DNA of 64,000 nucleotides, taken from Craspedostauros australis (lineage: Eukaryota > Bacillariophyta > Bacillariophyceae > Mastogloiales > Achnanthaceae). The notes under the pieces were generated by a model, which was given only the letters and a program-made list of their open reading frames with translations, had not been told where the DNA came from and searched no databases. The DNA lies in contig JAMXDE010000003.1 of the NCBI GenBank assembly GCA_026770025.1, positions 1,240,001 through 1,304,000 of the forward strand, read 5' to 3'. A program made the position numbers and the translations under genes. Below are positions 7,005 to 53,354 of the stretch, in pieces; position 1 is the stretch's first letter, and each line of letters begins with the position of its first letter.

Positions 7005-8432
7005 CTATCGAGTGAATGTGATCAAGTACTCTGGGTAGGCCTGGGCGTCGTGGTACACCACAAAGGTGGATGGATTGTCCACACTGTCGACCGTGGAATC
7101 AAAGAGTTCCGTCTGTTGGTTAGGTTTGGTGTCAGGGATCAGCTGGTTGCTTGTTCCTTGGCAAAAGTCTCCAATAGCTACGCGGCACATGAACATGCGT
7201 TGGACGTTGTCGTCATCAGGGACGGAGTATGTATGATTGGTCGAGGTGGATAAATCTCTCGCAAAGTATACACCTTTGCCGTGCTGTGCTCCGTTGCGCC
7301 CGGCAAATGATCGATTGAATCCCTGTCTCTCGATCTTGGCGGCGTTCTCCTTTGTCGTGCCATGAAAGAGCCATTTGCGCTCCACAGACCGGCTGTGGTT
7401 GTTCACAACGGTTTCAGGGTGCTCTTCGAAGGCAATCTCCATCGTTTGCTTTTTGGCTGCATAGATCTGCCATAGCGCCAGGTTTTGAATACGCTCGATC
7501 GAGGCGATGTTGATGCTTTGGCCTGAAGAGGTGCACGGAGCGTGTTGAACGAAGCTGACCACTTCTTTCCATTCTTTGGAATGATGGCACAGTGGGAATC
7601 GTCCATCGTTGAAGCTCTGCTTGTCGTTGCTGAATCTCTCCCATGTAGGCGGTGTTTCCGATGAGACAGCCATTCCCTTCATGCCCTTGATGATATCGCC
7701 CATCACATCGACGGTGGGGGCGCTGACTGCTGTGATCGGAAACCAACCGGAGGTTGCGCAGGTTTGCAGTGACTGCGACAGTGTTTCGTTTGGCGCGCGA
7801 AAGGCAGATGCAGTTGGTAGAGCGTTGATTGTGCCTGCGCGCAATTTGAATGGGTCATAGAGTATCTCACCGTACGCCCATTCGTTATTTGTGGGATGTT
7901 CCTTCGTTACTTCGATGATCTGGCCTGGCACAATGGGGAGTAAGTTGTTGTGGTTGTCATCAATGTCGTTGGGCAAAGCCGGGATCTGATTGGCGCATCC
8001 AAAATCAACGATAACCATGACCTCTTCACGATGAATGCTGCGGTCGTACTGTGATGAATGGTTGGTTTGGATCATGCGAGCGAAGTTCACTGTGTACGAT
8101 GCCCCTGTATGAACGTTCCGCTTCTTTACCACCTTGTTCGAAAGATCCAGCGGGAACGAATGCACCGTACCATCCTTTTTGTATTGCTGAAATGCTCGCT
8201 CGATTTGCTTCGATATGTCGTTGCCGTACGACACAAAGTTCGTGTTCTCCAATCTCATTCCCGTCGCGTGCTTTTGCACGGTGTTCTGGTCCTCCTCCCA
8301 GTACCAGGTTACATCAGGGAGGGACATCTTGTTCGATCCTCTCTGATACGTCACGTACTCATTCACGGATCGAAAGGGGATGGTCTGGGTGACTGCCATG
8401 ACTCCCGTCTTCTGACAGCTGTTCTTCTCCAT
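7005..8432 (-). CDS. WWE / SH3-like / PARP-type mono-ADP-ribosyltransferase
   Basis: Single exon, 475 residues, true ATG at 8432. Residues about 40-133 form a WWE domain: Trp43/Trp45 in VTWYWEED, then IERAFQQY, then YTVNFARMIQTN followed by Arg-Ser-Ile-His-Arg. WWE domains bind ADP-ribose units or mediate ubiquitin-linked contacts. Residues about 160-237 look SH3-like: IVPGQIIEVT, EWAYGEILYD, SGWFPITAV. Residues about 265-475 are a PARP catalytic domain of the PARP10/14/15 subclass: LFHGT with His357, HGKGVYFARD with Tyr389, LFDSTVD, and the C-terminal AYPEYLITF. By comparison with PARP14/15 the third triad position falls on Leu470, so the triad is H-Y-L, predicting mono- rather than poly-ADP-ribosylation from NAD+. 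No macrodomain or transmembrane segment is seen. Location is probably cytosolic or nuclear. The half-palindrome TACGAGTAGAG lies about 90 bp upstream. Confidence 0.9.
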   Translation of the reverse strand: MEKNSCQKTGVMAVTQTIPFRSVNEYVTYQRGSNKMSLPDVTWYWEEDQNTVQKHATGMRLENTNFVSYGNDISKQIERAFQQYKKDGTVHSFPLDLSNKVVKKRNVHTGASYTVNFARMIQTNHSSQYDRSIHREEVMVIVDFGCANQIPALPNDIDDNHNNLLPIVPGQIIEVTKEHPTNNEWAYGEILYDPFKLRAGTINALPTASAFRAPNETLSQSLQTCATSGWFPITAVSAPTVDVMGDIIKGMKGMAVSSETPPTWERFSNDKQSFNDGRFPLCHHSKEWKEVVSFVQHAPCTSSGQSINIASIERIQNLALWQIYAAKKQTMEIAFEEHPETVVNNHSRSVERKWLFHGTTKENAAKIERQGFNRSFAGRNGAQHGKGVYFARDLSTSTNHTYSVPDDDNVQRMFMCRVAIGDFCQGTSNQLIPDTKPNQQTELFDSTVDSVDNPSTFVVYHDAQAYPEYLITFTR

Positions 8433-33900: not shown

Positions 33901-36900
33901 ATGATCACCGTCGTTGACTCTGAGACCAATATCCATGCCGATGACGCTACGTTGGGCATGCCGTCCCGTTCTGTCGTCGATGCCAACACAGGACGTGAAC
34001 GATCCAACACTCCGCAGATGAAACCGAATGCCATCGAAGATGCGAGCATGAGCAACGATGGCTCAGCAGGCCACGGCGACAGTGATGGGGACGATGGTGG
34101 TCTCCCCTTCCACAATTTGTGCTTGATTGGGAGGGACAAAGAGATTCAACTGCTCAAGAGGACATTCCTCACAACCTGCACGCAAGCAAGAGCGCTGGCA
34201 GCAGGATCAGACGCCAGTAGCCTGGGACACGATGGAAGCAGCAGCAACCGCTCCGGAGAATTTCGAAGATCCGCAGCCTCGCATGATGGAGACGCCGCTG
34301 TCCGTATGGAGCTCCGTGACCATGACGCCCAGCCAATCATGTCCTCGTCCTCGAAGAGGAGCCTCGTTCTCATCTCCGGACATTCGGGAAGCGGGAAGAC
34401 TGCCCTGGCCATGCAGGTCAAACGATTTGCATCTGCTCAAGGCAATGGCACCCACGACAACAACCGCCAGCATCGCCCCTTCCACGGATTCTTCGTCTCT
34501 GGGAAATGTGAGATCTCCAAAATGAACGCGGAACAACCATACGCCGGTATCAAATCAGCATTGGCGGATCTCTGCAACCAGATCCTTTGCTTGCCGAGAG
34601 ACGAACATGACCTCGACCACGCTGTGGAAATCACAGTGCCATTGATGAAGTCTGTTGGAGAATCCACATCATCGGAAACAGCCACAGGCTCTACGGCGGC
34701 CACCTCATCCTCGTCGAACTCATCATCGTCAATGGGCGAAGCAGATACAGATGCAGATGGGGATGTTGGCACACCTCAGAAGCGCATGCCGCACCAAACA
34801 TCTTCAACCACGACTCCGGAGTACTCCTCTGCTTCCGACACGGCCGCCGGTGGTGGCAATCATGACGATGGCGATGACCACCGTCGTCTGTCCATCCTAC
34901 GAAAGCTCCTCAAGAGAGGACTGACGAGAAGTGAGATACAGGTACTCTCTAATGTCATCCCGGAGCTACCTCAAGCCGTCTATGGGAAGGAGTACATCAA
35001 CCTGGTTGTTGGTAACGGTCTACAAGGCAACACGGAGGGTAAGGGCGCCAGCGACGAGGCTTCCGTCATGAGCGGATCCACCATGACCATGCCATACAAA
35101 CAGAGCAAAGCCAGACCATGGAACGAACGCATCGGATATCGAGCACACGGTGACAGACTCAAGTTCGCTCTGCGAAAGCTCATTCAGATCATCTGCAACT
35201 ACTGCCCCCTCATCTTCGTCATCGATGATCTACAATGGGCAGACAAGGCATCGCTCGACATCCTCAAGTCATGGATGCTGGACAGCAAGAACTCATCGCT
35301 CATGATCATCGGATGCTACCGATCCAACCTCCTGGAAGAGAACGATGTTCTCAAGACTACGCTGACATCATTGGATGAATCCAAGCGGGAGCGTGCCCTC
35401 CGCATCGTCAAGCTTCCCATCCAAGATCTGGAGGTGCATCACATCAACGAGCTGCTGTGTCGGCTGTTGGCTGTTCCAACGGATGGTCACGCACTCAATG
35501 ACCACAGTGCTAATGGCGCTGACAATGCCGACGATGTGGACGATGCTGATGATATTGATGATGCTGACGAGATGAATGGCCGATCGAAGGTCGTGAAGGA
35601 GCTTGCTGATGTGGTACATCAAAAGACGGCTGGGAATCCCTTCTTCGTCCAGCGCTTCCTTCATTCCTTGGTTGACGAAGGCCTGCTCAAGTACAACGGA
35701 GCGAAGCAGCCGTCACCGCCATCACTATCGGCATCGGCAGCATCCAACACCAAGAACGGTTTCTCGTGGGCATGGTCGTGGAACGATACCGACATTCGAT
35801 CCAAGTCACCATCCACAAGCAACATCATCGATCTCATGAAGGACAAGCTGCAGCAGGTGCAGAATGCTCGTCAGATCCTGCCCATCGCAGCATGTCTGGG
35901 CGCATCTTTCTCACACTCGACCATCTGCATCGTGATGCGTGGTCTATCCATCCATTCGGCACATTCCGCGTTCGTCCGCAAGCTGTTCGGCATCAATCGC
36001 TTCGTTTCCAACAACGACATCGATGAGATGCTGCACACGTGCGAGCAGGAAGGTCTCGTGGAGATGTCGATGGGATTCAAGCGTGCGTCCAGCCACCCTC
36101 CGACTACGTCAGACAAACTCCCAAGCAGAACGCTCAGTGGGATCAAGGGGCACAAGAAGAGGAAGAAGACCAAATCATCCACCATCTACAATTTCAGCCA
36201 CGACAAGGTCCAGGAAGCGGCACTGGCCATGCTGGATCAAGAGCAGCTGTCCGAGCTGAAGTACCGAGTTGGCGAAATTCTGCTTTTCGGTCTTCCCGAT
36301 GACGAGCTCACCGAGCGCATCTTCATGGTCGCCAATCTCGTCAACACGAGGTTCGACCTCATCCCTGATACCAACAAGAGCGAACGTGGCAAGCGTGTCA
36401 TGATGCTGAACTTCGATGCCGGAAGCAAGGCGGTGGGTTGCTCTTCGTTCCACTTGGCATCTCGGTACTTCAGGAACGCCATCAATCTGCTTCCCAACGG
36501 TCATTGGGAGACGATGCAAGAAGAGACGCTTGAGATCTACTCAGCCGCGGCCGAATGCGCGTACGTCACGTCAAATCTCGACCGCGCCCGCCGATACTGC
36601 AACGAGATCATTGAATCCAAGTGTGACATCCTGGACAAGGTCGATGCGTATCACACTCTCATCGACGCGGGAGTAGCAGAATTGCGGAACGATGGGAATG
36701 AATCCACAGCTCTTCGGTTGTGCTTGGATGTCCTGTCGCAACTAGGCTGCCAACTTCCAAAGCCCGGTATCAGACGGACACTGAGCACCATCTTTGGTCT
36801 TCTGAAGCTCAAGCGAACTGTTCACACCTTGACGACAGAATCGATCGATGACCTTCCTCTGATGACCAACAGGAAGGAGGATGCAATCATGCAGATGCTG

Positions 36901-38055
36901 CAAAAGCTGATCATCGTAGCATATTTTGCTGATGCGAAATCCATCCCGTGCATTTCGCTAGCAAGCATGAAGCGGACGATCAAACATGGCGTGTCTGAGC
37001 ATTCTGCTATGGCTTTTGTCTACCTAGGCTTAACCATGGGGGCCTTCATGGGCGACTTTCATGCCCGAGAAGTTTTTGGACAAGCAGCTTTCGACATCTT
37101 GGAAAGGGTGAACGAGCCAGCTTCAGCAGCGACCGCAGTTTTTCAGTGCTGGGCACTGGTTCGGCATTGGAAGCGACCGATTGAACAGCTCAAAGAGCCA
37201 TTGATGGAGGCCTATCACATGGGAATGTCGGTCGGTAATGTATACGCAGGATCCTGGAGCATCGCCATCTACTCTTTGGTCAACATCATCATCGGAACCC
37301 CGTTGTCAAAGATCGATGCGGACTGCGCCACGTATTCAAAAGTTCTGCTCGATTTCGACCAGAATGCGCAGTATGCCTTCTTCGCCACGATGTGGCAGGT
37401 CGTGCTCAACCTGCGCGGAGCCTCTAAACATCGCATCTTGCTCATTGGTGATGCATTCGACGAGAGAAGCGATTTAAATGATGGTGACAGCACGATCAAT
37501 GCTGTTCACAAGAGATCAGTGCAAATGGCCAAGCTACAGTTATGCGTCTACTTCGAAGACTATGGACAGGGTGCAAGCCTTGCCATCGGCCTCGTTGACC
37601 ACGTAATGCGCGATTTTCCCGGCTCGCCTTCTTTGCCTCCGGCATTATTCCGAATGGCCCTTTGCTGCCGAGCGGCATCGCATTCGAAGACCGCAAGTCG
37701 CAAGTACAAGAAGATCGCTGTTCGTTGCGTGAAAGACCTCAAGGCTTGGAGCAAGCAAGGTCATCCAAACGGCCATCACTACATCATGATCCTCGACGCA
37801 GAACGTCACTTCCTGCGCGGAAATCACGATTTCGCCACCAAGATGTATCTGAAGGCTATCGAGAGTTCTGCCGCTCGCGGGTTCATCCAAGACCAAGCGT
37901 TGGCAAATGAACGGCTCGGAGACTGTGGCATGAAATGCGGGAGGAGAGAGGATGCAAGATCCCGATACGAGGAATCAGAGCGATTGTATACCCTGTGGGG
38001 AGCAACCAGAAAGGTGGAAGATCTTCAATTGAAGATCCAAGGTATCTTCGGATAG
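33901..38055 (+). CDS. STAND-type AAA ATPase with helical-repeat C-terminus, tandem copy 1
   Basis: Single exon, 1384 residues. The NTPase module is of the AAA_16 kind found in MalT-like regulators, soluble adenylyl cyclase and hybrid histidine kinases: CLIGRDKEIQLLKR (about 75-88) opens the domain; Walker A is GHSGSGKT (160-167); GKCEISKMNAEQPYAGIKSA is the usual sensor-like stretch; Walker B is VIDDLQWAD (440-448); GCYRSN follows; TAGNPFFVQRFLHSL closes the lid. Low-complexity Ser/Thr and acidic (DDVDDADDIDDADEM) linkers interrupt it. After a winged-helix-like part (ILPIAACLGASFS, NFSHDKVQEAAL) the C-terminal 500 residues form TPR-like helical repeats ending YTLWGATRKVEDLQLK, the standard end of this module. 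No kinase, cyclase, GAF or DNA-binding output domain follows. Probably an ATP-dependent signalling switch or scaffold; the ligand is unknown. Its central 2.3 kb is almost identical to the next two genes. Confidence 0.88.
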   Translation: MITVVDSETNIHADDATLGMPSRSVVDANTGRERSNTPQMKPNAIEDASMSNDGSAGHGDSDGDDGGLPFHNLCLIGRDKEIQLLKRTFLTTCTQARALAAGSDASSLGHDGSSSNRSGEFRRSAASHDGDAAVRMELRDHDAQPIMSSSSKRSLVLISGHSGSGKTALAMQVKRFASAQGNGTHDNNRQHRPFHGFFVSGKCEISKMNAEQPYAGIKSALADLCNQILCLPRDEHDLDHAVEITVPLMKSVGESTSSETATGSTAATSSSSNSSSSMGEADTDADGDVGTPQKRMPHQTSSTTTPEYSSASDTAAGGGNHDDGDDHRRLSILRKLLKRGLTRSEIQVLSNVIPELPQAVYGKEYINLVVGNGLQGNTEGKGASDEASVMSGSTMTMPYKQSKARPWNERIGYRAHGDRLKFALRKLIQIICNYCPLIFVIDDLQWADKASLDILKSWMLDSKNSSLMIIGCYRSNLLEENDVLKTTLTSLDESKRERALRIVKLPIQDLEVHHINELLCRLLAVPTDGHALNDHSANGADNADDVDDADDIDDADEMNGRSKVVKELADVVHQKTAGNPFFVQRFLHSLVDEGLLKYNGAKQPSPPSLSASAASNTKNGFSWAWSWNDTDIRSKSPSTSNIIDLMKDKLQQVQNARQILPIAACLGASFSHSTICIVMRGLSIHSAHSAFVRKLFGINRFVSNNDIDEMLHTCEQEGLVEMSMGFKRASSHPPTTSDKLPSRTLSGIKGHKKRKKTKSSTIYNFSHDKVQEAALAMLDQEQLSELKYRVGEILLFGLPDDELTERIFMVANLVNTRFDLIPDTNKSERGKRVMMLNFDAGSKAVGCSSFHLASRYFRNAINLLPNGHWETMQEETLEIYSAAAECAYVTSNLDRARRYCNEIIESKCDILDKVDAYHTLIDAGVAELRNDGNESTALRLCLDVLSQLGCQLPKPGIRRTLSTIFGLLKLKRTVHTLTTESIDDLPLMTNRKEDAIMQMLQKLIIVAYFADAKSIPCISLASMKRTIKHGVSEHSAMAFVYLGLTMGAFMGDFHAREVFGQAAFDILERVNEPASAATAVFQCWALVRHWKRPIEQLKEPLMEAYHMGMSVGNVYAGSWSIAIYSLVNIIIGTPLSKIDADCATYSKVLLDFDQNAQYAFFATMWQVVLNLRGASKHRILLIGDAFDERSDLNDGDSTINAVHKRSVQMAKLQLCVYFEDYGQGASLAIGLVDHVMRDFPGSPSLPPALFRMALCCRAASHSKTASRKYKKIAVRCVKDLKAWSKQGHPNGHHYIMILDAERHFLRGNHDFATKMYLKAIESSAARGFIQDQALANERLGDCGMKCGRREDARSRYEESERLYTLWGATRKVEDLQLKIQGIFG

Positions 38056-39307
38056 CTTCCGACTGTCCAAGACGCACTGAGTTGTATGGAGGACGGAAGA
38101 TGGAAAACCGTCTGATAATTCATACAACATACCGCAAAACAACACATAACAATCTTCCGTTTGCACGGGATGATCCCCGAATGGGATAACTTCGTAATAC
38201 TATGAGCTAGCGAGTGCTTGTGACCTCTACCCTTGATCTCGTTCGCGCATCTGCTTACACGCCTTTTCGCGAATTTCTCAGATCGCGTGGAAATATTCCT
38301 ATTCGTACTTTCAGCATAGTACTCCAATACCTGTTCGTGGGCAGCATGGCGGATAGCGTCTGCACAATCTACATAGAAGACTTAGTCTGGCATCGACTCA
38401 TTGGATTGCACAAATGAAACGAACACCGTGTTGCCGGTCAGACGATACATCGTCTCCCCTGTTGATGGATCAGCCACGATGGGTGGTTTCTGACAGATTG
38501 CCATCACGCCACCACCACACAAATACCGCCAATCAGTTCCTCATGTTTGGGCCTTTTGTTCCTCTCGAGTGGCATTGACATTTATTTGCAAATCAGACGT
38601 GTGTGAGTGCATACGCTTGTTGGACGTGTACGGATATTTTGGGGCTGTAAAGTAGTCGTCAATATCGGATCATGCCCTTGTGATACAATCACACCGCACA
38701 GCGCCAATCAAGACCAACAAAGAAAGGCGAGTAGTCGCGGGTGACATCATCATCCTCACAAAGTCGAATTGCTTCCAGTCCTCTCCCAAAACTTACACTT
38801 TCTCCGCGGAACAGTTTCGTGCGCTGGTGTGGGTCAGCACCATCGAATCCGTCCATAGGTTGAACCGGATCCTCGAGACACATCTTTCAACAACAAGGCC
38901 TCTCTTCTTTTCTCTGCAACACCACAAGCACTTGACCTCGATGCCAAGATTCCAACCAGAAGAGGCGCAAAAATCGACCAGGACATCAACGTACCACATG
39001 ATCATTGTACCATAGCATCGCTGCACCTCGGCATCACTGTTTTCACGGCACATTGTTTCACGGCACATTGTACCACGGCACCATTGTACCACGGCGCATT
39101 GTTTCACGGCGCATTGTACCACGGCGCATTGTACCACGGCGCATTGTTTCACGACACATTGTACCAAGGCATCAGTGTACCAAGGCATCACTGTTTCACG
39201 GCATCATTTCACCACGGCATCACGGCAGCACAGCATCATATAATACAAGCAAGCAAGGCAACCAAGGACTCGGTCAACCCCTTCTGCGAAACTCATCGAC
39301 GAAGAAC
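38056..39307. other. Spacer between tandem ATPase copies 1 and 2
   Basis: About 1.25 kb, mostly featureless, with a 15-bp-unit minisatellite in its last part. No frame with a domain. It is not similar to the spacer between copies 2 and 3, so the duplication unit did not visibly include it or it has since diverged. Confidence 0.55.
39031..39231. repeat. Minisatellite with about 15-bp unit ACGGCRCATTGTNYC
   Basis: About a dozen degenerate copies. The unit is a multiple of three, so the frame upstream of ATPase copy 2 stays open back to an ATG at 39005, encoding an odd His/Arg/Pro-rich stretch. Probably 5' untranslated sequence. Confidence 0.85.
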
Positions 39308-42300
39308 ATGTTGCGGACAGCAGTGACAAACAATGATTCCAAGCCCGCGGCTGGCGGAGCAAGCCGCAGAGCACCAAACTTTCACGATGCAACTATCGAC
39401 ACCAGCAACAGCCATCGTCAGGAAGCTCTGAACAAACTATTGCCATCGATTGGACTAGTCTCCGTTGACACAAGCATGTTCAACGGTAGTGACACATTCC
39501 AAAGCGGAAGTGACAGCGACGGAAATAATGAGGATCTGCCATTCCACAGCGTCGGGCTGATTGGAAGAGGCAAGGAACTCCGGTTGCTGCGCAAGGTATT
39601 CCACTCAACCTGCGGACAGGTGCAAGGAAGATCTGTGTTCGGTCCTATTACCAGCGACAGAGATGGGAGCAACCATTCCGCAGATTTCCTGAGAGTTTCC
39701 ACAACTAGTGCTGCAACTGCCACCACTAATAACAGTGGCACTAATACCTCTGACGAATTCCGTATGTCACCGATGATCCCATCCTCGAAGAGGAGCCTCG
39801 TTCTCATCTCCGGACATTCGGGAAGCGGGAAGACTGCCCTGGCCATGCAGGTCAAGCGATTTGCATCTGCTCAAGGCAATGGCACCCACGATGACAACCG
39901 CCAGCATCGCCCCTTCCACGGATTCTTCGTCTCTGGGAAATGTGAGATCTCCAAAATGAACGCGGAACAACCATACGCCGGTATCAAATCAGCATTGGCG
40001 GATCTCTGCAACCAGATCCTTTGCCTGCCGAGAGACGAACATGACCTCGACCACGCTGTGGAAATCACAGTGCCATTGATGAAGTCTGTTGGAGAATCCA
40101 CATCATCGGAAACAGCCACAGGCTCTACGGCGGCCACCTTATCCTCGTCGAACTCATCATCGTCAGTGGGGGGAGCAGGTACACCTCGGACGCGCATGCC
40201 GCACCAAACATCTTCAACCACGACTCCAGCGTACTCCTCTTCTTCCGGCACAGCCGCCGGTGGTGGCAATCATGACGATGGTGACGACCACCGTCGTCTG
40301 TCCATCCTACGAAAGCTCCTCAAGAGAGGACTGAAGAGAAGTGAGATACAGGTACTCTCTAATGTCATCCCGGAGCTACCTCAAGCCATCTACGGACAGA
40401 ACCGCATCGATGCTATCGCCAACGACTGCAACGAGAAGCCCAAAGACGACACATCCGTCATGAGCGCATCCACCATGACCATGCCATACAAACAGAGCAA
40501 AGCCAGACCATGGAACGAACGCATCGGATATCGAGCACACGGTGACAGACTCAAGTTCGCTCTGCGAAAGCTCATTCAGATCGTCTGCAACTACTGCCCC
40601 CTCATCTTCGTCATCGATGATCTACAATGGGCAGACAAGGCATCGCTCGACATCCTCAAGTCATGGATGCTGGACAGCAAGAACTCATCGCTCATGATCA
40701 TCGGATGCTACCGATCCAACCTCCTGGAAGAGAACGATGTTCTCAAGACTACGCTGACATCATTGGATGAATCCAAGCGGGAGCGTGCCCTCCGCATCGT
40801 CAAGCTTCCCATCCAAGATCTGGAGGTGCATCACATCAACGAGCTGCTGTGTCGGCTGTTGGCTGTTCCAACGGATGGTCACGCACTCAATGACCACAGT
40901 GCTAATGGCGCTGACAATGCCGACGATGTGGACGATGCTGATGATATTGATGATGCTGACGAGATGAATGGCCGATCGAAGGTCGTGAAGGAGCTTGCTG
41001 ATGTGGTACATCAAAAGACGGCTGGGAATCCCTTCTTCGTCCAGCGCTTCCTTCATTCCTTGGTTGACGAAGGCCTGCTCAAGTACAACGGAGCGAAGCA
41101 GCCGTCACCGCCATCACTATCGGCATCGGCAGCATCCAACACCAAGAACGGTTTCTCGTGGGCATGGTCGTGGAACGATACCGACATTCGATCCAAGTCA
41201 CCATCCACAAGCAACATCATCGATCTCATGAAGGACAAGCTGCAGCAGGTGCAGAATGCTCGTCAGATCCTGCCCATCGCAGCATGTCTGGGCGCATCTT
41301 TCTCACACTCGACCATCTGCATCGTGATGCGTGGTCTATCCATCCATTCGGCACACTCCGCGTTCGTCCGCAAGCTGTTCGGCATCAATCGCTTCGTTTC
41401 CAACAACGACATCGATGAGATGCTGCACACGTGCGAGCAGGAAGGTCTCGTGGAGATGTCGATGGGATTCAAGCGTGCGTCCAGCCACCCTCCGACTACG
41501 TCAGACAAACTCCCAAGCAGAACGCTCAGTGGGATCAAGGGGCACAAGAAGAGGAAGAAGGCCAAATCGTCCACCATCTACAATTTCAGCCACGACAAGG
41601 TCCAGGAAGCGGCACTGGCCATGCTGGATCAAGAGCAGCTGTCCGAGCTGAAGTACCGAGTTGGCGAAATTCTGCTTTTCGGTCTTCCCGCCGACGAGCT
41701 CACCGAGCGCATCTTCATGGTCGCCAATCTCGTCAACACGAGGTTCGACCTCATCCCTGATACCAACAAGAGCGAACGTGGCAAGCGTGTCATGATGCTG
41801 AACTTCGATGCCGGAAGCAAGGCGGTGGGCTGCTCTTCGTTCCACTTGGCATCTCGGTACTTCAGGAACGCCATCAATCTGCTTCCCAACGGTCATTGGG
41901 AGACGATGCAGGAAGAGACGCTTGAGATCTACTCAGCCGCGGCCGAATGCGCATACGTCACGTCAAATCTTGACCGTGCCCGCCGATATTGCAACGAGAT
42001 CATTGAATCCAAGTGTGACATCCTGGACAAGGTCGCTGCGTATCACACTCTCATCGACGTGGCAGTCGCCGAGGTGCAGAAAGACATTAGTGGATCCACA
42101 GCGATTCAGCTCTGCGTGCATCTTCTGGCTCAGCTTGAATGCAAACTTCCAAAGCCCGGTATCAGACGGACACTGAGCACCACCTTTGGTCTCCTGAAGC
42201 TTCAGCGCGCAGCTCGCATGTTGACACAAGACATGATCAATGATCTTCCTTTGGTCACCGAGAGGAAAGACGATGCCATAATGAAGACGTTGGGAAAACT

Positions 42301-43447
42301 GCTTGCAGTGTGCTACTCCCATGATCCCGAAATGTCGCCCGTCGTGGCGCTCCGCATGATGCACGCGACATTCAAGAACGGGATTTCCGAGATCTCTCCC
42401 GTCGCCTTTGTTTCGCTAGGGATTATCGCAGGTATGGCCTTCGGGGACGGCGAGACAAGAGGTATATTCGGTCGATCAGCATTAGGCATACTAGCAAGGA
42501 TGGATCAGCCAGCCACAGCAGCAAACATCATTTTCCAGTACCATGCATTGATACTGCACTGGAGCCGGCCGATCGAAGAGCTCAAAGAGCCATCATTGGA
42601 GACATATCGACAGGGGATGTCTGTAGGAGACGTGGAAACTGCTGGGTGGAGCATCACTACATACATATGGTTGTGCTTTTCCACCGGAGATTCGTTGCAA
42701 CAAGTCGACGCAGACTATGCAACGTACTCGAAAATCCTGACGGATTTCAATCAGAATGCGCAGGTGAAGTTCTTCCAATGCTGGTGGCAGGCTGTGCTTA
42801 ACTTGCGAGGGGCTTCCAGCCACCGCATCTTGCTCATCGGCGATGCATTCGACGAGCGCGATAACACGAATAGCGACGGCAACGCCGTCAGTGCCATGCA
42901 CAAACGAGGTGTCAATATCTCCAAAACTACGCTGTGCGGATTCTTTGGAGAATACGAAGAGGGAGCAAAGCTGTCCGCTCACAGCGTCGATCAGACCATC
43001 GCCGATTACCCAAGTTCGCCCTCCATATCATCGATACTGTTCCGAACAGCGTTCTGCTGCTTTGCTGCCTCGCATTCAGCGACCGCAGATCCCAAGTACC
43101 GGAAGATCGGCAAACGGTGCCTCAAGAAACTCAAGGGTTGGAGCAAGCGTGGGCATCCCAACTGCCATCACTACATCATGATCCTCGGCGCAGAACGACA
43201 GTTCTTGCGTGGCAACCACGACGGCGCCACCAACTTGTACATGAAAGCTATCGACAGCGCTGGCGGACGTGGATTCATCCAAGATCAAGCGTTGGCAAAT
43301 GAACGACTCGGAGATTGTGGTATGAAATGCGGGAAGAGCGAGGACGCGAGATGTCGATACGAGGAGTCGAAGCGGCTCTACGCTCTGTGGGGAGCAACGA
43401 GGAAGGTGGATGATCTCCAATCAAAGATGCAACGCATCTTCGGATAG
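39308..43447 (+). CDS. STAND-type AAA ATPase with helical-repeat C-terminus, tandem copy 2
   Basis: Single exon, 1379 residues from the ATG at 39308. An in-frame ATG exists at 39005, but those 101 extra codons translate a minisatellite and have no counterpart in the other copies; with 39308 the length matches the 1384 and 1363 residues of copies 1 and 3. The domain opens with GLIGRGKELRLLRK; Walker A GHSGSGKT is at 169-176; Walker B VIDDLQWAD at 435-443; lid TAGNPFFVQRF; C-terminal TPR-like repeats end YALWGATRKVDDLQSK. The Ser/Thr linker is shorter than in copies 1 and 3 (SSVGGAGTPRTRMPHQ) and the segment after QAIYGQN differs from them. From Walker B to about position 42050 it differs from copy 1 at only about a dozen bases, whereas the N- and C-terminal parts are clearly diverged. 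No output domain is present. Confidence 0.88.
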   Translation: MLRTAVTNNDSKPAAGGASRRAPNFHDATIDTSNSHRQEALNKLLPSIGLVSVDTSMFNGSDTFQSGSDSDGNNEDLPFHSVGLIGRGKELRLLRKVFHSTCGQVQGRSVFGPITSDRDGSNHSADFLRVSTTSAATATTNNSGTNTSDEFRMSPMIPSSKRSLVLISGHSGSGKTALAMQVKRFASAQGNGTHDDNRQHRPFHGFFVSGKCEISKMNAEQPYAGIKSALADLCNQILCLPRDEHDLDHAVEITVPLMKSVGESTSSETATGSTAATLSSSNSSSSVGGAGTPRTRMPHQTSSTTTPAYSSSSGTAAGGGNHDDGDDHRRLSILRKLLKRGLKRSEIQVLSNVIPELPQAIYGQNRIDAIANDCNEKPKDDTSVMSASTMTMPYKQSKARPWNERIGYRAHGDRLKFALRKLIQIVCNYCPLIFVIDDLQWADKASLDILKSWMLDSKNSSLMIIGCYRSNLLEENDVLKTTLTSLDESKRERALRIVKLPIQDLEVHHINELLCRLLAVPTDGHALNDHSANGADNADDVDDADDIDDADEMNGRSKVVKELADVVHQKTAGNPFFVQRFLHSLVDEGLLKYNGAKQPSPPSLSASAASNTKNGFSWAWSWNDTDIRSKSPSTSNIIDLMKDKLQQVQNARQILPIAACLGASFSHSTICIVMRGLSIHSAHSAFVRKLFGINRFVSNNDIDEMLHTCEQEGLVEMSMGFKRASSHPPTTSDKLPSRTLSGIKGHKKRKKAKSSTIYNFSHDKVQEAALAMLDQEQLSELKYRVGEILLFGLPADELTERIFMVANLVNTRFDLIPDTNKSERGKRVMMLNFDAGSKAVGCSSFHLASRYFRNAINLLPNGHWETMQEETLEIYSAAAECAYVTSNLDRARRYCNEIIESKCDILDKVAAYHTLIDVAVAEVQKDISGSTAIQLCVHLLAQLECKLPKPGIRRTLSTTFGLLKLQRAARMLTQDMINDLPLVTERKDDAIMKTLGKLLAVCYSHDPEMSPVVALRMMHATFKNGISEISPVAFVSLGIIAGMAFGDGETRGIFGRSALGILARMDQPATAANIIFQYHALILHWSRPIEELKEPSLETYRQGMSVGDVETAGWSITTYIWLCFSTGDSLQQVDADYATYSKILTDFNQNAQVKFFQCWWQAVLNLRGASSHRILLIGDAFDERDNTNSDGNAVSAMHKRGVNISKTTLCGFFGEYEEGAKLSAHSVDQTIADYPSSPSISSILFRTAFCCFAASHSATADPKYRKIGKRCLKKLKGWSKRGHPNCHHYIMILGAERQFLRGNHDGATNLYMKAIDSAGGRGFIQDQALANERLGDCGMKCGKSEDARCRYEESKRLYALWGATRKVDDLQSKMQRIFG

Positions 43448-44445
43448 GTTTGCTGTGACGAGGAGGCTACGGGCAATTGCCAAATGTAAATAGAAGTTCG
43501 GCAGAGTTAAGTTGAGTGGAGTAGTGGTAGAGTAGAGTGGAGTGGAGTGGAGTGGAGTACTTTGTTGTACGACGTGACAGCGGCTGAGATGCGTGAGGAC
43601 AAAACACGCACACATTCATCCAGACAGATACAGATATGCAAACAAACAGACACATCGACATACATACACCGTTGATTCAAAGTGACACACAGCCAATCGT
43701 GAAAATCATCTCCAATGAAAGAAGTCTGGCGAATTCATGATCTCTTGTTCGTCACAATTTTATCACCAACAACGTCGAGAAGCGGATGATAAAATCGACA
43801 GTGGGCACAGAGGCAATCCTACTTGTGCGTACGACTACCGGTACGACCGTGCGAAGTTCAAATGTGTTATGACTTCGACGAGGAACGCAACGAACAGTTT
43901 ATCTATGATCCTTCGCAGAAGTGGATGGACAAGGGAACAACCGCGCCCTGGCCCCACACCGCCAGCGAGAAAAGGAGGATCGGACCCGCATCATTCTCGT
44001 TCAGCATGAATGTGAATGACTGGTAGCTCTTGTTTATGGCCAGGTTGGTCCTTAACCTTGTAGTTGGCCGGTCACAACCCAGAACGCCCCGGCGGTTCCG
44101 CACCTCGTTTTGTTTGCACGATCAACATGGCAAACGTTCGCGAAACAATCGCAAGAAGGAGATTTCTGGACGCGGGTGCTGTCATGCATGCGGATATATA
44201 TTAACTTCGGGAGAGTGTTTCGGCACTGTGGCGGTGATGGAGTTGGCATTGGACTGCGAAAGTGTCGAAGAGAGGAAGCGCAAACAACAATCACCCCAAA
44301 CACAGAGCACATTACGTCACCACACCACCACGCCTCCGAATAGGACCTGCGAGTACAACCTACAGAAGAGATCTATGGGGAGATCTGGGACCATATTTTC
44401 TCATCAATCATCTCGGATTGTTGCAATAACCCAAGGACGTGCAAC
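43448..44445. other. Spacer between tandem ATPase copies 2 and 3
   Basis: About 1 kb. Contains GTGGA pentamer reiterations (about 43534-43557), CAGACA/CATACA-type short repeats (about 43618-43675) and a GCGTACGACTACCGGTACGACC segment near 43826. No supported gene. Confidence 0.55.
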
Positions 44446-47400
44446 ATGACCTCCGTCCACGACATGAAGCCACACACTGCCACCGTTGGAGCCATCGCCA
44501 GCACCCTGAGCCATCAGGGCGCGGCCTCGAGCAACGCCAACCATCAAGCCGACCTCATGAACAAGTTGCCGCCCCCAATTGCGCTGACCTCGGATGAGAC
44601 AAGCATGAGCGATGGTAGTTCCACAATCTACACTGAGATCGATGGGCATTATGACAACTTGCCGTTTCACAGCGTCGGGTTGATCGGAAGAGACCAGGAG
44701 CTCCGGTTGCTCCGCAAGGCATTCCACTCAACATGTCTGCACGAGAAAGACGGGTTCCAATCCACCATCAATAATGGTGGCGTGCATGCCTCCTCCAGTA
44801 CCAGTCAACGCTCAGCGATAGCATCCTCCATGATGATCTCAACCTCGAAAAGGACCCTCGTTCTCATCTCCGGACATTCGGGAAGCGGGAAGACTGCCCT
44901 GGCCATGCAGGTCAAGCGATTTGCATCTGCTCAAGGCAATGACACCCACGACGACAACCGCCAGCATCGCCCCTTCCACGGATTCTTCGTCTCTGGGAAA
45001 TGTGAGATCTCCAAAATGAACGCGGAACAACCATACGCCGGTATCAAATCAGCATTGGCGGATCTCTGCAACCAGATCCTTTGCCTGCCGAGAGACGAAC
45101 ATGACCTCGACCACGCTGTGGAAATCACAGTGCCATTGATGAAGTCTGTTGGAGAATCCACATCATCGGAAACAGCCACAGGCTCTACGGCGGCCACCTC
45201 ATCCTCGTCGAACTCATCATCGTCAATGGGCGAAGCAGATACAGATGCAGATGGGGATGTTGGCACACCTCAGAAGCGCATGCCGCACCAAACATCTTCA
45301 ACCACGACTCCGGAGTACTCCTCTGCTTCCGACACGGCCGCCGGTGGTGGCAATCATGACGATGGCGATGACCACCGTCGTCTGTCCATCCTACGAAAGC
45401 TCCTCAAGAGAGGACTGACGAGAAGTGAGATACAGGTACTCTCTAATGTCATCCCGGAGCTACCTCAAGCCGTCTATGGGAAGGAGTACATCAACCTGGT
45501 TGTTGGTAACGGTCTACAAGGCAACACGGAGGGTAAGGGCGCCAGCGACGAGGCTTCCGTCATGAGCGCATCCACCATGACCATGCCATACAAACAGAGC
45601 AAAGCCAGACCATGGAACGAACGCATCGGATATCGAGCACACGGTGACAGACTCAAGTTCGCTCTGCGAAAGCTCATTCAGATCATCTGCAACTACTGCC
45701 CCCTCATCTTCGTCATCGATGATCTACAATGGGCAGACAAGGCATCGCTCGACATCCTCAAGTCATGGATGCTGGACAGCAAGAACTCATCGCTCATGAT
45801 CATCGGATGCTACCGATCCAACCTCCTGGAAGAGAACGATGTTCTCAAGACTACGCTGACATCATTGGATGAATCCAAGCGGGAGCGTGCCCTCCGCATC
45901 GTCAAGCTTCCCATCCAAGATCTGGAGGTGCATCACATCAACGAGCTGCTGTGTCGGCTGTTGGCTGTTCCAACGGATGGTCACGCACTCAATGACCACA
46001 GTGCTAATGGCGCTGACAATGCCGACGATGTGGACGATGCTGACGAGATGAGTGACCGATCGAAGGTCGTGAAGGAGCTTGCTGATGTGGTACATCAAAA
46101 GACGGCTGGAAATCCCTTCTTCGTCCAGCGCTTCCTTCATTCCTTGGTTGACGAAGGCCTGCTCAAGTACAACGGAGCAAAACAGCCGTCACCGTCATCG
46201 CTATCGGCATCGGCAGCATCCAACACCAAGAACGGTTTCTCGTGGGCATGGTCGTGGAACGATACCGACATTCGATCCAAGTCACCATCCACAAGCAACA
46301 TCATCGATCTCATGAAGGACAAGCTGCAGCAGGTGCAGAATGCTCGTCAGATCCTGCCCATCGCAGCATGTCTGGGTGCATCCTTCTCACACTCGACCAT
46401 CTGCATCGTGATGCGTGGTCTATCCATCCATTCGGCACACTCCGCGTTCGTCCGCAAGCTGTTCGGCATCAATCGCTTCGTTTCCAACAACGACATCGAT
46501 GAGATGCTGCACACGTGCGAGCAGGAAGGTCTCGTGGAGATGTCGATGGGATTCAGCACTTCATCCGACCACGATACTAGCCCATCACACAAAACGTCCA
46601 TCAGAACACTGAGCAAAACATCAAGCAGAACGCTCAGTGGGATCAAGGGACACAAGAAGAGGAAGAAGGCCAAATCGTCCACCATCTACAATTTCAGCCA
46701 CGACAAGGTCCAGGAAGCGGCACTGGCCATGCTGGATCAAGAGCAACTGTCCGAGCTGAAGTACCGAGTTGGTGAAATTCTGCTTTTCGGTCTTCCCGCC
46801 GACGAGCTCACCGAGCGCATCTTCATGGTCACCAATCTCGTCAACACGAGGTTCGACCTCATCCCTGATACCAACAAGAGCGAACGTGGCAAGCGTGTCA
46901 TGATGCTGAACTTCGATGCTGGAAGCAAGGCGGTGGGCTGCTCCTCGTTCCACTTGGCATCTCGGTACTTCAGGAACGCCGTCAATCTGCTTCCCAACGG
47001 TCATTGGGAGACAATGCAGGAAGAGACGCTTGAGATCTACTCAGCTGTAGCCGAATGCGCGTACGTCACGTCAAATCTTGACCGCGCCCGCCGATACTGC
47101 AACGAGATCGTGGAATCCAAGTGTGACATCCTGGACAAGGTCGATGCGTATCACACTCTCATCGACGTGGCAGTCGCCGAGGCGGAGAAAGACAAGGGTG
47201 ATCGAGCAGCGCTTCGGTTGTGCCTGGATGTTTTGTCGCAGCTGGGGTGCAAACTCCCAAAGCCCGGTATTAGACGGACACTGAGCACCGTCTTTGGTCT
47301 ATTGAGATTGAAGCGGATTGCTCATACCATCACATCCAAGACGATCGATGATCTTCCTCTGATGACCGACAGAAAGGAGGATGCTGTAATGACGACGTTG

Positions 47401-48537
47401 GGGAAACTGTTGATGGTGTGCTACTTCTCTGACCCCGGGCTCATCCCGTGCGTCACAATGCGCACTCTGCGCCAGACCATGCACCACGGTGTGTCTGAGC
47501 ATTCCGCTTCGGCTTTCACATTCTTGGGAATCATCATGGGGAGCAAAATGGGGAACATAGCGGCAAGAGAGAGATTTGGGCAAAGGGCCGTCGATGTTCT
47601 GGACAAGATTGACCAGCCCGCCTCAGCACCACGGATCCTTTTTCACTACTACGCCCTGATGCGGCATTGGACGCAACCGCTGGAAAGCTTGAGAGAGCCA
47701 CTCATGGAGGCGTACCGTGCAGGAATGTCGGCGGGATCGGTCATGGCAGCTGGATCGTGCCTTTCGATCTACGTCAGGATTGAGTTCTTCATCGGTGTGC
47801 CTCTGCGGCAGATTGACGAAGACTGCGCGGCGTATTCGAAGGTTGTGTCGGATTTCGATCAAAGCGCGCAAGTTAGGCTGTTCACATCATTGTGGCAGGT
47901 CGTGCTGAACCTTCGAGGAGCATCCAAACATCGCATCCTGATGATCGGCGACGCGTACGACGAGCGCAACGAGGCGAACTTCTCTCACCACAGAGGCGTC
48001 ACCATGTCCAAATCGATCCTCTGTCTCTACTTTGGCCACTACGAAGAGGGCGCAAAGCTCTCTGCTGGTATCATTGATCAGATCGTGCGAGAGTACATGA
48101 GCGCCCCGGCGCTGCCACCGGCGCTGTTTCGAACCGCCCTCTGCTGCCTCGCTGCTTCGCATTCGAAGACAGCGGATCGCACCTACAAGAAGACGGCCAA
48201 GCGATGCCTCAAGCAACTCAAGGCATGGCGCAAGCAGGGACATCCCAACTGTCCCCATTACATCATGCTTCTGGATGCAGAGCTGGATTTCTTGCGTGGC
48301 AATCACGACAGGGCGATCCAGCTGTATGCAGAGGCAGCGGGAAGTGCCGGAGGACGTGGATTCATCCAAGATGAGGCATTGGCGAATGAGCGGCTTGGAG
48401 ATTGCTTGCTCGACTGCGGCAAGAAAGCAGAGGCAAAGGATAGATTCGAGGATTCGACACAACTGTACAGTGCGTGGGGAGCAGACAGAAAGGTTAGGGA
48501 TTTGCGAGACAAGGTGGAGCGCATATTTGGCTCTTGA
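44446..48537 (+). CDS. STAND-type AAA ATPase with helical-repeat C-terminus, tandem copy 3
   Basis: Single exon, 1363 residues. Same architecture: GLIGRDQELRLLRK, Walker A GHSGSGKT (143-150), Walker B VIDDLQWAD (423-431), lid TAGNPFFVQRF, winged-helix-like part, TPR-like tail ending YSAWGADRKVRDLRDK. The acidic linker is six residues shorter than in copies 1 and 2 (DDVDDADEM). The Ser-rich segment before GIKGHKKRKK is different and longer (SHKTSIRTLSKTSSRTL). The middle linker (GEADTDADGDVGTPQK) and the KEYINLVVGNG segment match copy 1, while the N-terminal LPFHSVGLIGR and the GLPADEL segment match copy 2, so affinities change along the gene. No kinase or cyclase follows; the next gene begins about 590 bp downstream. 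The ATPase motifs are intact, so it is expected to be functional. Confidence 0.88.
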   Translation: MTSVHDMKPHTATVGAIASTLSHQGAASSNANHQADLMNKLPPPIALTSDETSMSDGSSTIYTEIDGHYDNLPFHSVGLIGRDQELRLLRKAFHSTCLHEKDGFQSTINNGGVHASSSTSQRSAIASSMMISTSKRTLVLISGHSGSGKTALAMQVKRFASAQGNDTHDDNRQHRPFHGFFVSGKCEISKMNAEQPYAGIKSALADLCNQILCLPRDEHDLDHAVEITVPLMKSVGESTSSETATGSTAATSSSSNSSSSMGEADTDADGDVGTPQKRMPHQTSSTTTPEYSSASDTAAGGGNHDDGDDHRRLSILRKLLKRGLTRSEIQVLSNVIPELPQAVYGKEYINLVVGNGLQGNTEGKGASDEASVMSASTMTMPYKQSKARPWNERIGYRAHGDRLKFALRKLIQIICNYCPLIFVIDDLQWADKASLDILKSWMLDSKNSSLMIIGCYRSNLLEENDVLKTTLTSLDESKRERALRIVKLPIQDLEVHHINELLCRLLAVPTDGHALNDHSANGADNADDVDDADEMSDRSKVVKELADVVHQKTAGNPFFVQRFLHSLVDEGLLKYNGAKQPSPSSLSASAASNTKNGFSWAWSWNDTDIRSKSPSTSNIIDLMKDKLQQVQNARQILPIAACLGASFSHSTICIVMRGLSIHSAHSAFVRKLFGINRFVSNNDIDEMLHTCEQEGLVEMSMGFSTSSDHDTSPSHKTSIRTLSKTSSRTLSGIKGHKKRKKAKSSTIYNFSHDKVQEAALAMLDQEQLSELKYRVGEILLFGLPADELTERIFMVTNLVNTRFDLIPDTNKSERGKRVMMLNFDAGSKAVGCSSFHLASRYFRNAVNLLPNGHWETMQEETLEIYSAVAECAYVTSNLDRARRYCNEIVESKCDILDKVDAYHTLIDVAVAEAEKDKGDRAALRLCLDVLSQLGCKLPKPGIRRTLSTVFGLLRLKRIAHTITSKTIDDLPLMTDRKEDAVMTTLGKLLMVCYFSDPGLIPCVTMRTLRQTMHHGVSEHSASAFTFLGIIMGSKMGNIAARERFGQRAVDVLDKIDQPASAPRILFHYYALMRHWTQPLESLREPLMEAYRAGMSAGSVMAAGSCLSIYVRIEFFIGVPLRQIDEDCAAYSKVVSDFDQSAQVRLFTSLWQVVLNLRGASKHRILMIGDAYDERNEANFSHHRGVTMSKSILCLYFGHYEEGAKLSAGIIDQIVREYMSAPALPPALFRTALCCLAASHSKTADRTYKKTAKRCLKQLKAWRKQGHPNCPHYIMLLDAELDFLRGNHDRAIQLYAEAAGSAGGRGFIQDEALANERLGDCLLDCGKKAEAKDRFEDSTQLYSAWGADRKVRDLRDKVERIFGS

Positions 48538-51479: not shown

Positions 51480-53354
51480 ATGAGTGACGATTACGGAAGA
51501 AGGCACCGCGGCGACGACCGTCGTGATCGCGATCGTCGTGACCATGGCAGAGACCGTCATGATCGCGGAGAACGGCGCAGCTTCGGAGGTGGCGACGATC
51601 GGCGGGAGAGGGGCAGGTATGGAGATAGGGATCGTGGCCGAGATGGCGGTGGTCGAGATGAAGGCAGACGTGATGAAGGCAGACGTGAAGGTCGCAGGGA
51701 TGGTGATGGCCGAGACAAAAGCCGAGAAGGCCGCCGATCCAACGGTGGAAGGAGTCGTTGGGACGATGTTGGCGAACAGCATGGTGATGGGCGCAACGGT
51801 GACAACCGCGCAAACGCAGGTGGAACCCCAGGTGCAACCTCAGGTGCAAATGCAGGTGCAACCCCAGGTGCAACCAACGGAGGACGCACGCGTGGCGAGG
51901 AGAGCTACTACGGCCACGCAGCCGCAGGCGACACCGATGACAACAAACACGAATCCATCCGTCCCGGTCTCGTCGTGAAGGGCACGGTGGCACGCATCGA
52001 AGCCTACGGAGCCTTCGTCGACTTCGAGGTCGGCAAGGACAAGCACCGCGGATTGGTGCACATCAGCCAGATCGCGCAACGCCGCGTCGAGCAGGTGACG
52101 GACGAGCTGCAGCTGGGCCAGGATGTCCACGCGTCCGTGCTCGATGTCGCGGAGGAACAGCGTTCGGACAGGCGCTTCGGCAACCGCGCACCGTCGCTGC
52201 GCATCCGTCTCGGCATGAAGGAGGTCAACCAGATGACGGGCCAGCGCATCGAGGGATCATCGGGCGGGGGCGGCAAGAGGGGGCGCCGCGGTGGCAACAC
52301 GAAGGAGTTGGAGAAGCGTGCGGATCAGCGTCGTCATCTCTACATGTCATCGCGCATGCATTGGAATACGGAGGAGAACGACGATGCGGGCGTCAGCAGC
52401 CGCATTCCGTACCTTCGCTTGCTGTGGTCCGCCAGTCCGGAGCCGGCCAAGGCGCAACCCGTTGCTGCCAAAAAGCCTTCGTCCGACGACAAGAAGAAGG
52501 CAAAGGACAGCGACGACGACAGCGACGACGATTCATCGTCATCTTCCGAAGATGAATCCAGCGTGTCGTCGTCCGAGTCATCGCGCGATCGACGCAAACG
52601 CCGCAAGAAACGCGGCAAACGTCGCAAATCTCGCAAACGCGACGAGAAGAAACGCAAGAAACGGAGCAGCAAATCCGACAAGCGAAGTCGCAAGCGCCGC
52701 CGATACTCAGATTCCGAGAGCGAGGCATCCAACAACAGCGATAGCGATAGCGACGACAGCGTCAAGAAGGACGACAACGAAAAGGAATCGCCGTCCGCCG
52801 AACCCAAGACCGAAGACAAGGGTGAAGACGCCATGGAAAACACCACCACCGAGGTCGACAAGGAGGCGCAGGACTTCAAGGACGCCGTCCAAGGCGGTGC
52901 CAAGGCCAACGAATCCGACGAGGAGGATGAGGGACCCAAGCCGCTCGCGCAGGGCAATGCCGGCAACGACGCGGGAGGGGCCGCCGGCTCGCAGTACGGA
53001 GGAGCCCTGTTGCCAGGCGAAGGACAAGCCATCGCCCAGTTCGTGCAGCAGAACCTGCGTATCCCGCGTCGTGGTGAGATTGGGTACTCGCAGGACGACA
53101 TCGAACACTACGAGAAGTCGGGTTTCGTCATGAGTGGTTCGCGACACTCTCGCATGAACGCCGTGCGTATCCGAAAGGAAAACCAGGTGTACTCCGCCGA
53201 AGAACAGCGGGCCCTCGCATTGATCACGATGGAGGAGAATCAGCAGAAGGAGGCCCAGCTCATGGAGGACTTCCGCACGATGCTCAAGGAGAAGAAGCAG
53301 CAGCGCGAGAAGGAGAAGAAGTCCAAGAAGAAAAAGAAGAAGTCGAAAAAGTAA
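51480..53354 (+). CDS. S1 RNA-binding domain fused to NKAP C-terminal domain
   Basis: Single exon, 624 residues. Residues 1-110 are Arg/Asp/Gly-rich (RD/RS-like), followed by a Gly-Ala-Thr-Pro repeat (112-134). An S1 domain spans about 159-250: GLVVKGTVARIEAYGAFVDF, RGLVHISQI, LGQDVHASVLDV, LRIRLGMKEVNQMTG. Its closing Ser/Gly-Met-Lys-x-Val-Asn/Asp-Gln-x-Thr-Gly is like the S1 domains of DHX8/PRP22 and ZCCHC17. The middle is an acidic then Ser/Lys/Arg-rich disordered region (330-500). Residues about 508-605 match the NKAP (SynMuv) C-terminal domain: ALLPGEGQAIAQFVQ, RIPRRGEIG, FVMSGSRHSRMNAVRIRKEN, YSAEEQRALA. NKAP binds RNA and the spliceosome and acts in transcription repression and splicing; typical NKAP proteins lack S1. 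A nuclear pre-mRNA role is therefore likely. A polyLys tail gives nuclear targeting signals. Confidence 0.9.
   Translation: MSDDYGRRHRGDDRRDRDRRDHGRDRHDRGERRSFGGGDDRRERGRYGDRDRGRDGGGRDEGRRDEGRREGRRDGDGRDKSREGRRSNGGRSRWDDVGEQHGDGRNGDNRANAGGTPGATSGANAGATPGATNGGRTRGEESYYGHAAAGDTDDNKHESIRPGLVVKGTVARIEAYGAFVDFEVGKDKHRGLVHISQIAQRRVEQVTDELQLGQDVHASVLDVAEEQRSDRRFGNRAPSLRIRLGMKEVNQMTGQRIEGSSGGGGKRGRRGGNTKELEKRADQRRHLYMSSRMHWNTEENDDAGVSSRIPYLRLLWSASPEPAKAQPVAAKKPSSDDKKKAKDSDDDSDDDSSSSSEDESSVSSSESSRDRRKRRKKRGKRRKSRKRDEKKRKKRSSKSDKRSRKRRRYSDSESEASNNSDSDSDDSVKKDDNEKESPSAEPKTEDKGEDAMENTTTEVDKEAQDFKDAVQGGAKANESDEEDEGPKPLAQGNAGNDAGGAAGSQYGGALLPGEGQAIAQFVQQNLRIPRRGEIGYSQDDIEHYEKSGFVMSGSRHSRMNAVRIRKENQVYSAEEQRALALITMEENQQKEAQLMEDFRTMLKEKKQQREKEKKSKKKKKKSKK

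Follow-up and report, generated by a model that had tools for sequence, protein, structure and literature searches.

Conversion limited to part of each gene has already been described in clusters of STAND and NLR genes, as far as the cited parts of the literature go. In the zebrafish NLR-B30.2 family, which comprises nearly 400 genes with a NACHT-type core and a B30.2 recognition domain under positive selection, synonymous divergence is unequal between the core and the C-terminal domain; the cited portion of the study ascribes this to part-gene conversion (PMC4852459). Paralogues within plant NBS-LRR resistance clusters also swap tracts. In the coffee SH3 cluster, whose genes combine NB-ARC with LRR, these tracts are 200 to 1258 bp long, and conversion is accompanied by positive selection on solvent-exposed residues (PMC3113787, sections cited). 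With respect to domain organization, the proteins PH0952 and MalT consist of NBD, HD, WHD, an arm of three helical hairpins, and a TPR sensor (PMC6468293, in the part cited). A literature search by title found no paper on conversion in the STAND family studied here.

The window, i.e., the whole 64,000-nucleotide stretch of Craspedostauros australis DNA that was analyzed, encodes on its forward strand three tandem STAND ATPase open reading frames, all of them intact and 1,363 to 1,384 residues long. These are referred to here as c1 (positions 33901 to 38055; 1,384 aa), c2 (39308 to 43447; 1,379 aa), and c3 (44446 to 48537; 1,363 aa). The mechanically called frame of c2 begins with a TTG at 39005, and the likely start is the ATG at 39308. 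The Pfam domain AAA_16 is matched in all three proteins with 54.8 to 58.6 bits (cut-off, 32.6). There are no N bases in the window, and a tblastn search of it found no gene copies beyond these three, the only other match being a self-match in a repeat before c2. As in zebrafish, conversion appears to be limited to part of each STAND gene, and tracts appear to be swapped as in coffee SH3; unlike the zebrafish family, this is an array of just three tandem genes with an AAA_16-type core and a TPR-like sensor.

The c1 to c3 proteins match the middle part of bacterial kinase-STAND-GAF-output proteins with ~25% identity and E values down to 3e-80. Four such bacterial proteins (in AP018309.1, NZ_CP117771.1, NZ_CP012644.1, and NZ_CP071606.1) share with c1 to c3 what is probably the same NBD-HD-WHD-TPR-like middle, which in those four is preceded by a Pkinase domain and followed by GAF and either a histidine kinase or a cyclase. 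In contrast, Pfam searches of the c1 to c3 proteins detect neither Pkinase nor GAF/histidine kinase or cyclase domains, and these proteins carry serine-rich and acidic loop inserts; their alignment to the bacterial trifunctional proteins stops where GAF starts. No eukaryotic relatives were found in the sequence collections searched. Among viral contigs, the c1 query retrieved no close relatives and a profile query retrieved four distant ones.

The Walker A, DDLQW, and GNPFF motifs are conserved in the three proteins and their relatives, and the G and K of Walker A and the DD/LxW of Walker B are invariant in an alignment of 47 sequences. In the AF2 model (pLDDT, 76; pTM, 0.74), residues 475 to 611 form helices followed by a winged-helix-like stretch, the helical domain and winged helix being assigned by order only, and residues 614 to 1200 form helix pairs, as expected of a C-terminal helical-repeat sensor. 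A Foldseek search returned 15 matches with E values up to 0.001, the first being a STAND-TPR protein and many others TPR proteins. The top match, 6mfv, supports the likeness to PH0952 and MalT (NBD, HD, WHD, arm, and TPR sensor; PMC6468293, part cited), whereas the fold score is weak (TM, 0.26/0.41; rmsd, 11.1), a profile search of PDB sequences gave no match, and no DNA-binding effector was found. By homology, each protein may be an ADP/ATP switch whose closed state would be held by the arm and sensor; it would open when the C-terminal solenoid, which is diverged between copies, binds an inducer, and would then multimerize via the shared core. Pfam, TIGR03903, and PADLOC profiles revealed no effector domain. 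An identity as TOMM_kin_cyc (TIGR03903) was rejected at 28.9 to 38.8 bits against a curated 705.75, as was the anti-phage defense label mad8 of PADLOC, which matched only the P-loop, in two of the three proteins, with E values of 0.0033 to 0.0091.

The initial annotation described a nearly identical central block in the three genes, and likelihood breakpoints reproduce its coordinates. In c1, the block extends from 34349 to 36667 according to likelihood breaks and dS windows; alignment register and BLASTN place its counterparts at 39783 to 42059 in c2 and 44843 to 47167 in c3. Support intervals for the 5' breakpoint fall within c1 positions 34300 to 34360, and those for the 3' breakpoint are 36664 to 36670 in the c1-c2 and c1-c3 comparisons and 36694 to 36796 in c2-c3. 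Windowed pairwise synonymous divergence, the check proposed in that annotation, is distinctly non-uniform, with dS of 0 to 0.27 in the block versus 0.68 to saturated in the ends. Fourfold-degenerate sites differ within the block at 11/357, 14/363, and 19/348 positions in the three copy pairs and at 51 to 73% of positions in both ends (Fisher p = 2e-39, 1e-40, and 2e-29, the block having been chosen on the same data). Thus there is a local synonymous drop between paralogues, bounded by sharp breaks, as expected of interlocus conversion. Block inserts that have no counterpart in the bacterial relatives are 96.6 to 98.5% identical between copies (islands left out), which counts in favor of conversion because such inserts are expected to evolve fast. 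In six comparisons, intergenic DNA aligns no better than shuffled sequences.

Outside the block, the copies are 47 to 56% identical in the N-terminal part, and the C-terminal TPR-like sensor parts (36668 to 38055 in c1) are about equally distant from each other, with 64 to 67% DNA identity. The suggestion that these ends evolve freely has to be abandoned: dN/dS is about 0.18 to 0.26 in the C-terminal part (a rough NG86 estimate with dS near saturation) and 0.28 to 0.42 in the N-terminal part, and the C-terminal part can be aligned to the bacterial relatives along its length. Judging by their sequences, the ends are old but constrained, and gross dN/dS gives no sign of positive selection. The N-terminal end, previously regarded as sensing, bears no sign of a sensor and consists of the opening section of the nucleotide-binding domain together with a length-variable linker. 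The term “ATPase core” is right in that the ATPase lies inside the block but too narrow, as the block, when mapped onto the AF2 model by the likelihood breaks, also spans the putative winged helix and ~150 residues of helical solenoid. Its 3' break lies close to the putative arm/sensor junction. GC-biased conversion was considered and rejected, there being no consistent rise in fourfold GC (block, 0.58 to 0.60; C-terminal part, 0.51 to 0.61; N-terminal part, 0.45 to 0.72).

Affinities switch inside the block, as had been noticed earlier. Copies c1 and c3 agree at 49/49 variable ungapped sites from 34706 to 35061, after which c1 and c2 agree at 32/33 variable sites from 35559 to 36164. The sharing of protein segments set out in the initial annotation holds: the GEADTDADGDVG linker and the KEYINLVVGNG segment are common to c1 and c3, the longer acidic linker and the FKRASSHPPTTSDK segment to c1 and c2, and GLPADEL to c2 and c3. 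The acidic-linker difference consists of 18 nucleotides at 35539 to 35556 in c1 and 40931 to 40948 in c2 that are missing in c3. The “about a dozen” differences between c1 and c2 downstream of Walker B number 12 in 1.4 kb on the list of variable sites. A recent c1-c3 tract (34460 to 35549, with its partner at 44954 to 46043 in c3) contains 2 differences (34591 and 35075) in 1090 bp, and a recent c1-c2 tract (35062 to 36168, with its partner at 40454 to 41560 in c2) contains 3 (35075, 35191, and 35964) in 1107 bp and includes an identical run of 772 bp. Two islands retain old divergence, with ~50% identity between identical flanks: at 40388 to 40453 in c2, 35/69 aligned bases are unlike both other copies, and at 46556 to 46621 in c3, 22/45 are, along with a 24-nt insertion. 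In permutations of all 117 variable core sites, the c1=c3 and c1=c2 runs were each reached in 0/5000 cases; with the 34 silent sites, 2/5000 permutations attained the observed c1=c3 run (8 sites) and 124/5000 the observed c1=c2 run (7 sites). When a single site was retained in every 30 bp, leaving 32, the c1=c3 run was attained in 1/5000 and the run total in 16/5000; the c1=c2 run (1294/5000) is non-significant alone.

Synonymous divergence, affinity switches, unalignable intergenic DNA, and old islands all support mosaic conversion of the core, which is established as far as sequence allows. We put the probability that three old tandem STAND ATPase paralogues with a TPR-like sensor have undergone repeated interlocus gene conversion, with tracts of different ages, at roughly 0.88. 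An older round would have left the whole block, which runs from Walker A of the nucleotide-binding domain through the putative helical domain and winged helix to the arm, ~2 to 4% different between copies. Later steps would have produced a ~1.1-kb tract common to c1 and c3 and an overlapping ~1.1-kb tract common to c1 and c2, and the islands would be stretches skipped by conversion, in loops predicted to be disordered. The longest identical runs (772 bp for c1-c2 and 483 bp for c1-c3) exceed short-read length, as might be expected if the reads of one copy had built the middle of the others during assembly or polishing; against such an artefact, which we consider improbable, stand the 117 variable sites in the block, copy-specific in-frame indels, three intact reading frames without an N, and divergence in graded classes instead of all or none.

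Further copies may exist elsewhere in the genome and could have served as donors if whole genes had been duplicated recently and their ends and flanks then replaced from other paralogues. That scheme, which we find very hard to accept, demands that two or more copies had their two ends and two flanks replaced with order and reading frame preserved, sits poorly with the about equally distant C-terminal parts, and by itself leaves the affinity switch unexplained. Conservation in the family resides in the core, so that purifying selection without any conversion might be invoked, but this is scarcely credible and already contradicted by the synonymous sites, which are nearly identical, as are the insert loops. 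Moreover, bacterial tandem pairs, such as one (L031) with ~80% protein identity, are highly diverged at synonymous sites in the same module. Codon bias provides no explanation either, because third-base composition is similar in the block and the ends.

Repeated conversion would make c1 to c3 a clean case of old paralogues whose switch module stays identical while their sensors differ; part-gene conversion is a known kind of event, and the edges here are unusually sharp. Phylogenies of genes like these, when based on the ATPase core, would mistake conversion for recent duplication. A speculative and rather doubtful extension is that selection confines conversion to the NOD plus arm, so that tandem paralogues whose only difference is in the sensors share an interchangeable multimerization module and form mixed hubs reading several inducers. 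If so, breaks near the arm/sensor junction in this eukaryotic array and in a cyanobacterial pair would be a trace of that rule, and if the same junction bounds conversion across unrelated lineages, it would become testable whether the STAND proteins within an array have an assembly module in common.

The generality of this pattern was assessed in bacterial tandem pairs, neighbors chosen by eye among the matches listed for 24 genomes (one listing covering part of its 222 matches) and in one further set of matches. We measured 26 pairs in 15 stretches, pairs from one array being non-independent; 7 more pairs were left out, as one copy had no complete Walker A and DDLQW motif. The synonymous difference in the NOD and arm is 0.27 to 0.81 in 25 of the 26 pairs, so synonymous sites there are not generally constrained. 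Several pairs speak against a general rule: the first-third pair of L091 is lower in the sensor (likelihood ratio, 24), that of L089 is homogenized in the kinase and output parts while its NOD is not, and a pair from L100 is similar throughout. A strong step (likelihood ratio above 50) is seen in 4/26 pairs from three arrays (L090, L097 twice, and L103), always with the lower synonymous difference on the ATPase side. The breaks in L097 and L103 fall at around +323 to +353, counted from Walker A, away from the arm/sensor junction. The cyanobacterial pair L090 is the only near-zero one, and its break lies ~6 residues from the place homologous to the 3' break of c1 to c3.

The three STAND ATPase genes, c1 (33901 to 38055), c2 (39308 to 43447) and c3 (44446 to 48537), are arranged head to tail on the forward strand, and each is an ORF with no internal stop and an AAA_16 domain above the cut-off. 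The mechanical ORF of c2 appears 101 residues longer owing to a TTG-started upstream extension containing a 15-bp tandem repeat of 11.5 units (39044 to 39219); because the 101 codons before 39308 overlap this repeat, the ATG at 39308 was taken as the c2 start. Elsewhere, Pfam searches find a single ORF that combines an S1 RNA-binding domain with an NKAP C-terminal domain (51480 to 53354, forward strand) and an ORF with WWE and PARP catalytic domains (7005 to 8432, reverse strand); the NKAP and WWE-PARP genes mark the window as eukaryotic. The reverse-strand ORF at 3608 to 4528 encodes DUF6824, which is common in diatoms and would point to one here.

These genes are old paralogues with a homogenised block (c1 34349 to 36667) made up of reticulate tracts. 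As the initial annotation had proposed, the cores are nearly identical, synonymous sites included, and the ends are diverged. Windowed pairwise synonymous divergence is not uniform: dS is 0 to 0.27 in windows inside the block and ranges from 0.68 to saturated in both ends. Fourfold sites agree, with differences in the block at 11/357 (c1-c2), 14/363 (c1-c3) and 19/348 (c2-c3), against 10/14, 11/15 and 12/23 in the N-terminal part and 66/122, 69/121 and 61/120 in the C-terminal part. Both boundaries are sharp, the best single 5' breakpoint lying within c1 34300 to 34360 and the 3' one at 36664 to 36670 (c1-c2, c1-c3) or 36694 to 36796 (c2-c3). In the flanks (1 kb upstream and a quarter kb downstream of each gene), none of six comparisons yielded a local alignment scoring above 50 shuffles.

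Within the block, the switching affinities noted earlier are borne out by counts of variable ungapped sites among the three copies (c1 coordinates throughout). After a mixed segment with 8 variable sites (34349 to 34705), c1 matches c3 at 49/49 sites in 34706 to 35061; 35062 to 35558 has only 3 variable sites, and in 35559 to 36164 c1 matches c2 at 32 sites and c2 matches c3 at 1. With the core sites thinned to one per 30 bp, the c1=c3 run is reached in 1 of 5000 permutations and the c1=c2 run in 1294, the latter not being significant by itself. The last segment (36165 to 36667) splits into 12 sites with c1=c2, 4 with c1=c3 and 8 with c2=c3, and over its 504 positions the copy pairs show 12, 20 and 16 differences. 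In 34460 to 35549, only 2 of 1,090 positions separate c1 from c3, and in 35062 to 36168 only 3 of 1,107 separate c1 from c2, which gives at least three divergence classes: about 0.2 to 0.3%, about 2 to 4%, and the ends. Two islands of old divergence with near-identical flanks remain, one in c2 (34978 to 35061; 35/69 aligned bases unlike both other copies) and one in c3 (36080 to 36121; 22/45); thus, c1 goes with c3 at the former and with c2 at the latter. The diverged ends also hint, from site patterns, at older exchange, with the nearest copy varying by end: c2=c3 at 23/36 two-state sites near the N terminus (34081 to 34160) and c1=c2 at 59/95 at the C terminus (37801 to 38060), the affinity counts of the final 460 bp differing from those of the N-terminal part (p 1.4e-4).

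Could selection alone, without conversion, have kept the block nearly identical? Some loops of c1 have no counterpart in the majority of 44 bacterial rows; inside the block, with the islands excluded, these loops are nevertheless 96.6 to 98.5% identical from copy to copy, whereas the N-terminal part is only 47 to 56% identical. Bacterial pairs keep the same protein module conserved although their synonymous sites are far apart, and fourfold-site base composition is alike in the block and the C-terminal part. All this argues for conversion. Selection does act on the C-terminal part, where NG86 dN/dS values of 0.26, 0.18 and 0.26 show purifying selection and contradict the earlier suggestion that the ends evolve freely.

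A tblastn search against plasmids returned 217 records, the best with an E of 3e-80; identity is about 25%, and the matches usually begin at residue 405 and reach the end. Four translated records contain Pkinase, AAA_16 and GAF domains plus a histidine kinase or, in one, a guanylate cyclase. The window proteins align to these relatives from just before AAA_16 to the WGA..KV..L stretch preceding GAF. Among 83 Walker A ORFs of the relatives (L001 to L084), read stop to stop and some of them cut by contig ends, three have <300 residues before Walker A and five have <250 residues following the match. No ORF falls short at both ends, so this set contains no stand-alone NOD-arm-sensor form (NOD being NBD, HD and WHD). 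Distant STAND relatives are also encoded on four contigs of a viral collection.

An AF2 model of c2 residues 150 to 1349 (47 sequences; mean pLDDT 76.0, pTM 0.74) has as its top Foldseek match 6mfv, a STAND protein with a TPR sensor (E 6.9e-06, TM 0.26/0.41). In PH0952 (PMC6468293), NBD, HD and WHD are followed by an arm built from three helical hairpins and then by the TPR sensor; counting three hairpins past WHD would place the arm at about model residues 626 to 751. The 3' break of the window copies corresponds to model residue 770 or so and, if the arm ends as predicted, would lie some 15 residues inside the sensor. The 5' break falls just before Walker A, past a variable-length linker and not at the NBD start. 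The islands and an 18-nt linker difference lie wholly or mostly in low-confidence model loops (219 to 251, 571 to 604 and 373 to 399).

By analogy with other STAND proteins, the resting state would be a closed ADP-bound form, released when an inducer binds the TPR-like sensor, whereupon an ATP-bound multimer would form; the effector may work in trans. Gene conversion keeps the common switch alike, and the data fit either chance of homology or selection as the reason. Partial gene conversion has already been reported for zebrafish NLR-B30.2 genes (PMC4852459) and plant clusters (PMC3113787), and the kind of process is therefore known. What is added here is the family, the sharp breaks and a cyanobacterial parallel.

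That parallel is a tandem pair on the fetched stretch L090 (offsets 5773 and 11212), in which 11 of 13 40-codon windows across residues 144 to 663, the kinase middle plus NOD, have no synonymous difference; the stretch from there to about residue 823 is intermediate, and both sides are far apart. Its best break lies +510 from Walker A; on this scale, c1 residue 922 corresponds to +516 (residue 847 of the first L090 copy, Walker A at 331). The 5' break of the L090 pair, in contrast, lies in the kinase rather than just before Walker A. Of 26 bacterial pairs measured, only this one approaches zero synonymous divergence; in three more a strong step occurs between +323 and +353, and the remainder have other parts homogenised, or none. 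One shared break near the arm/sensor junction is suggestive and makes no rule. In a reverse-strand array on L089 (offsets 1529 and 13166), genes 1 and 3 are synonymously alike in the kinase middle and output, not in the ATPase. Protein identity between tandem ORFs on L031 (4362 to 9575 and 9559 to 12933) is about 80% at first and drops to about 35% around residue 600 of the first ORF, with synonymous sites far apart along the whole length. A further cyanobacterial contig (L099 and L100) carries five neighbouring kinase-STAND copies, one adjacent pair of which is similar throughout.
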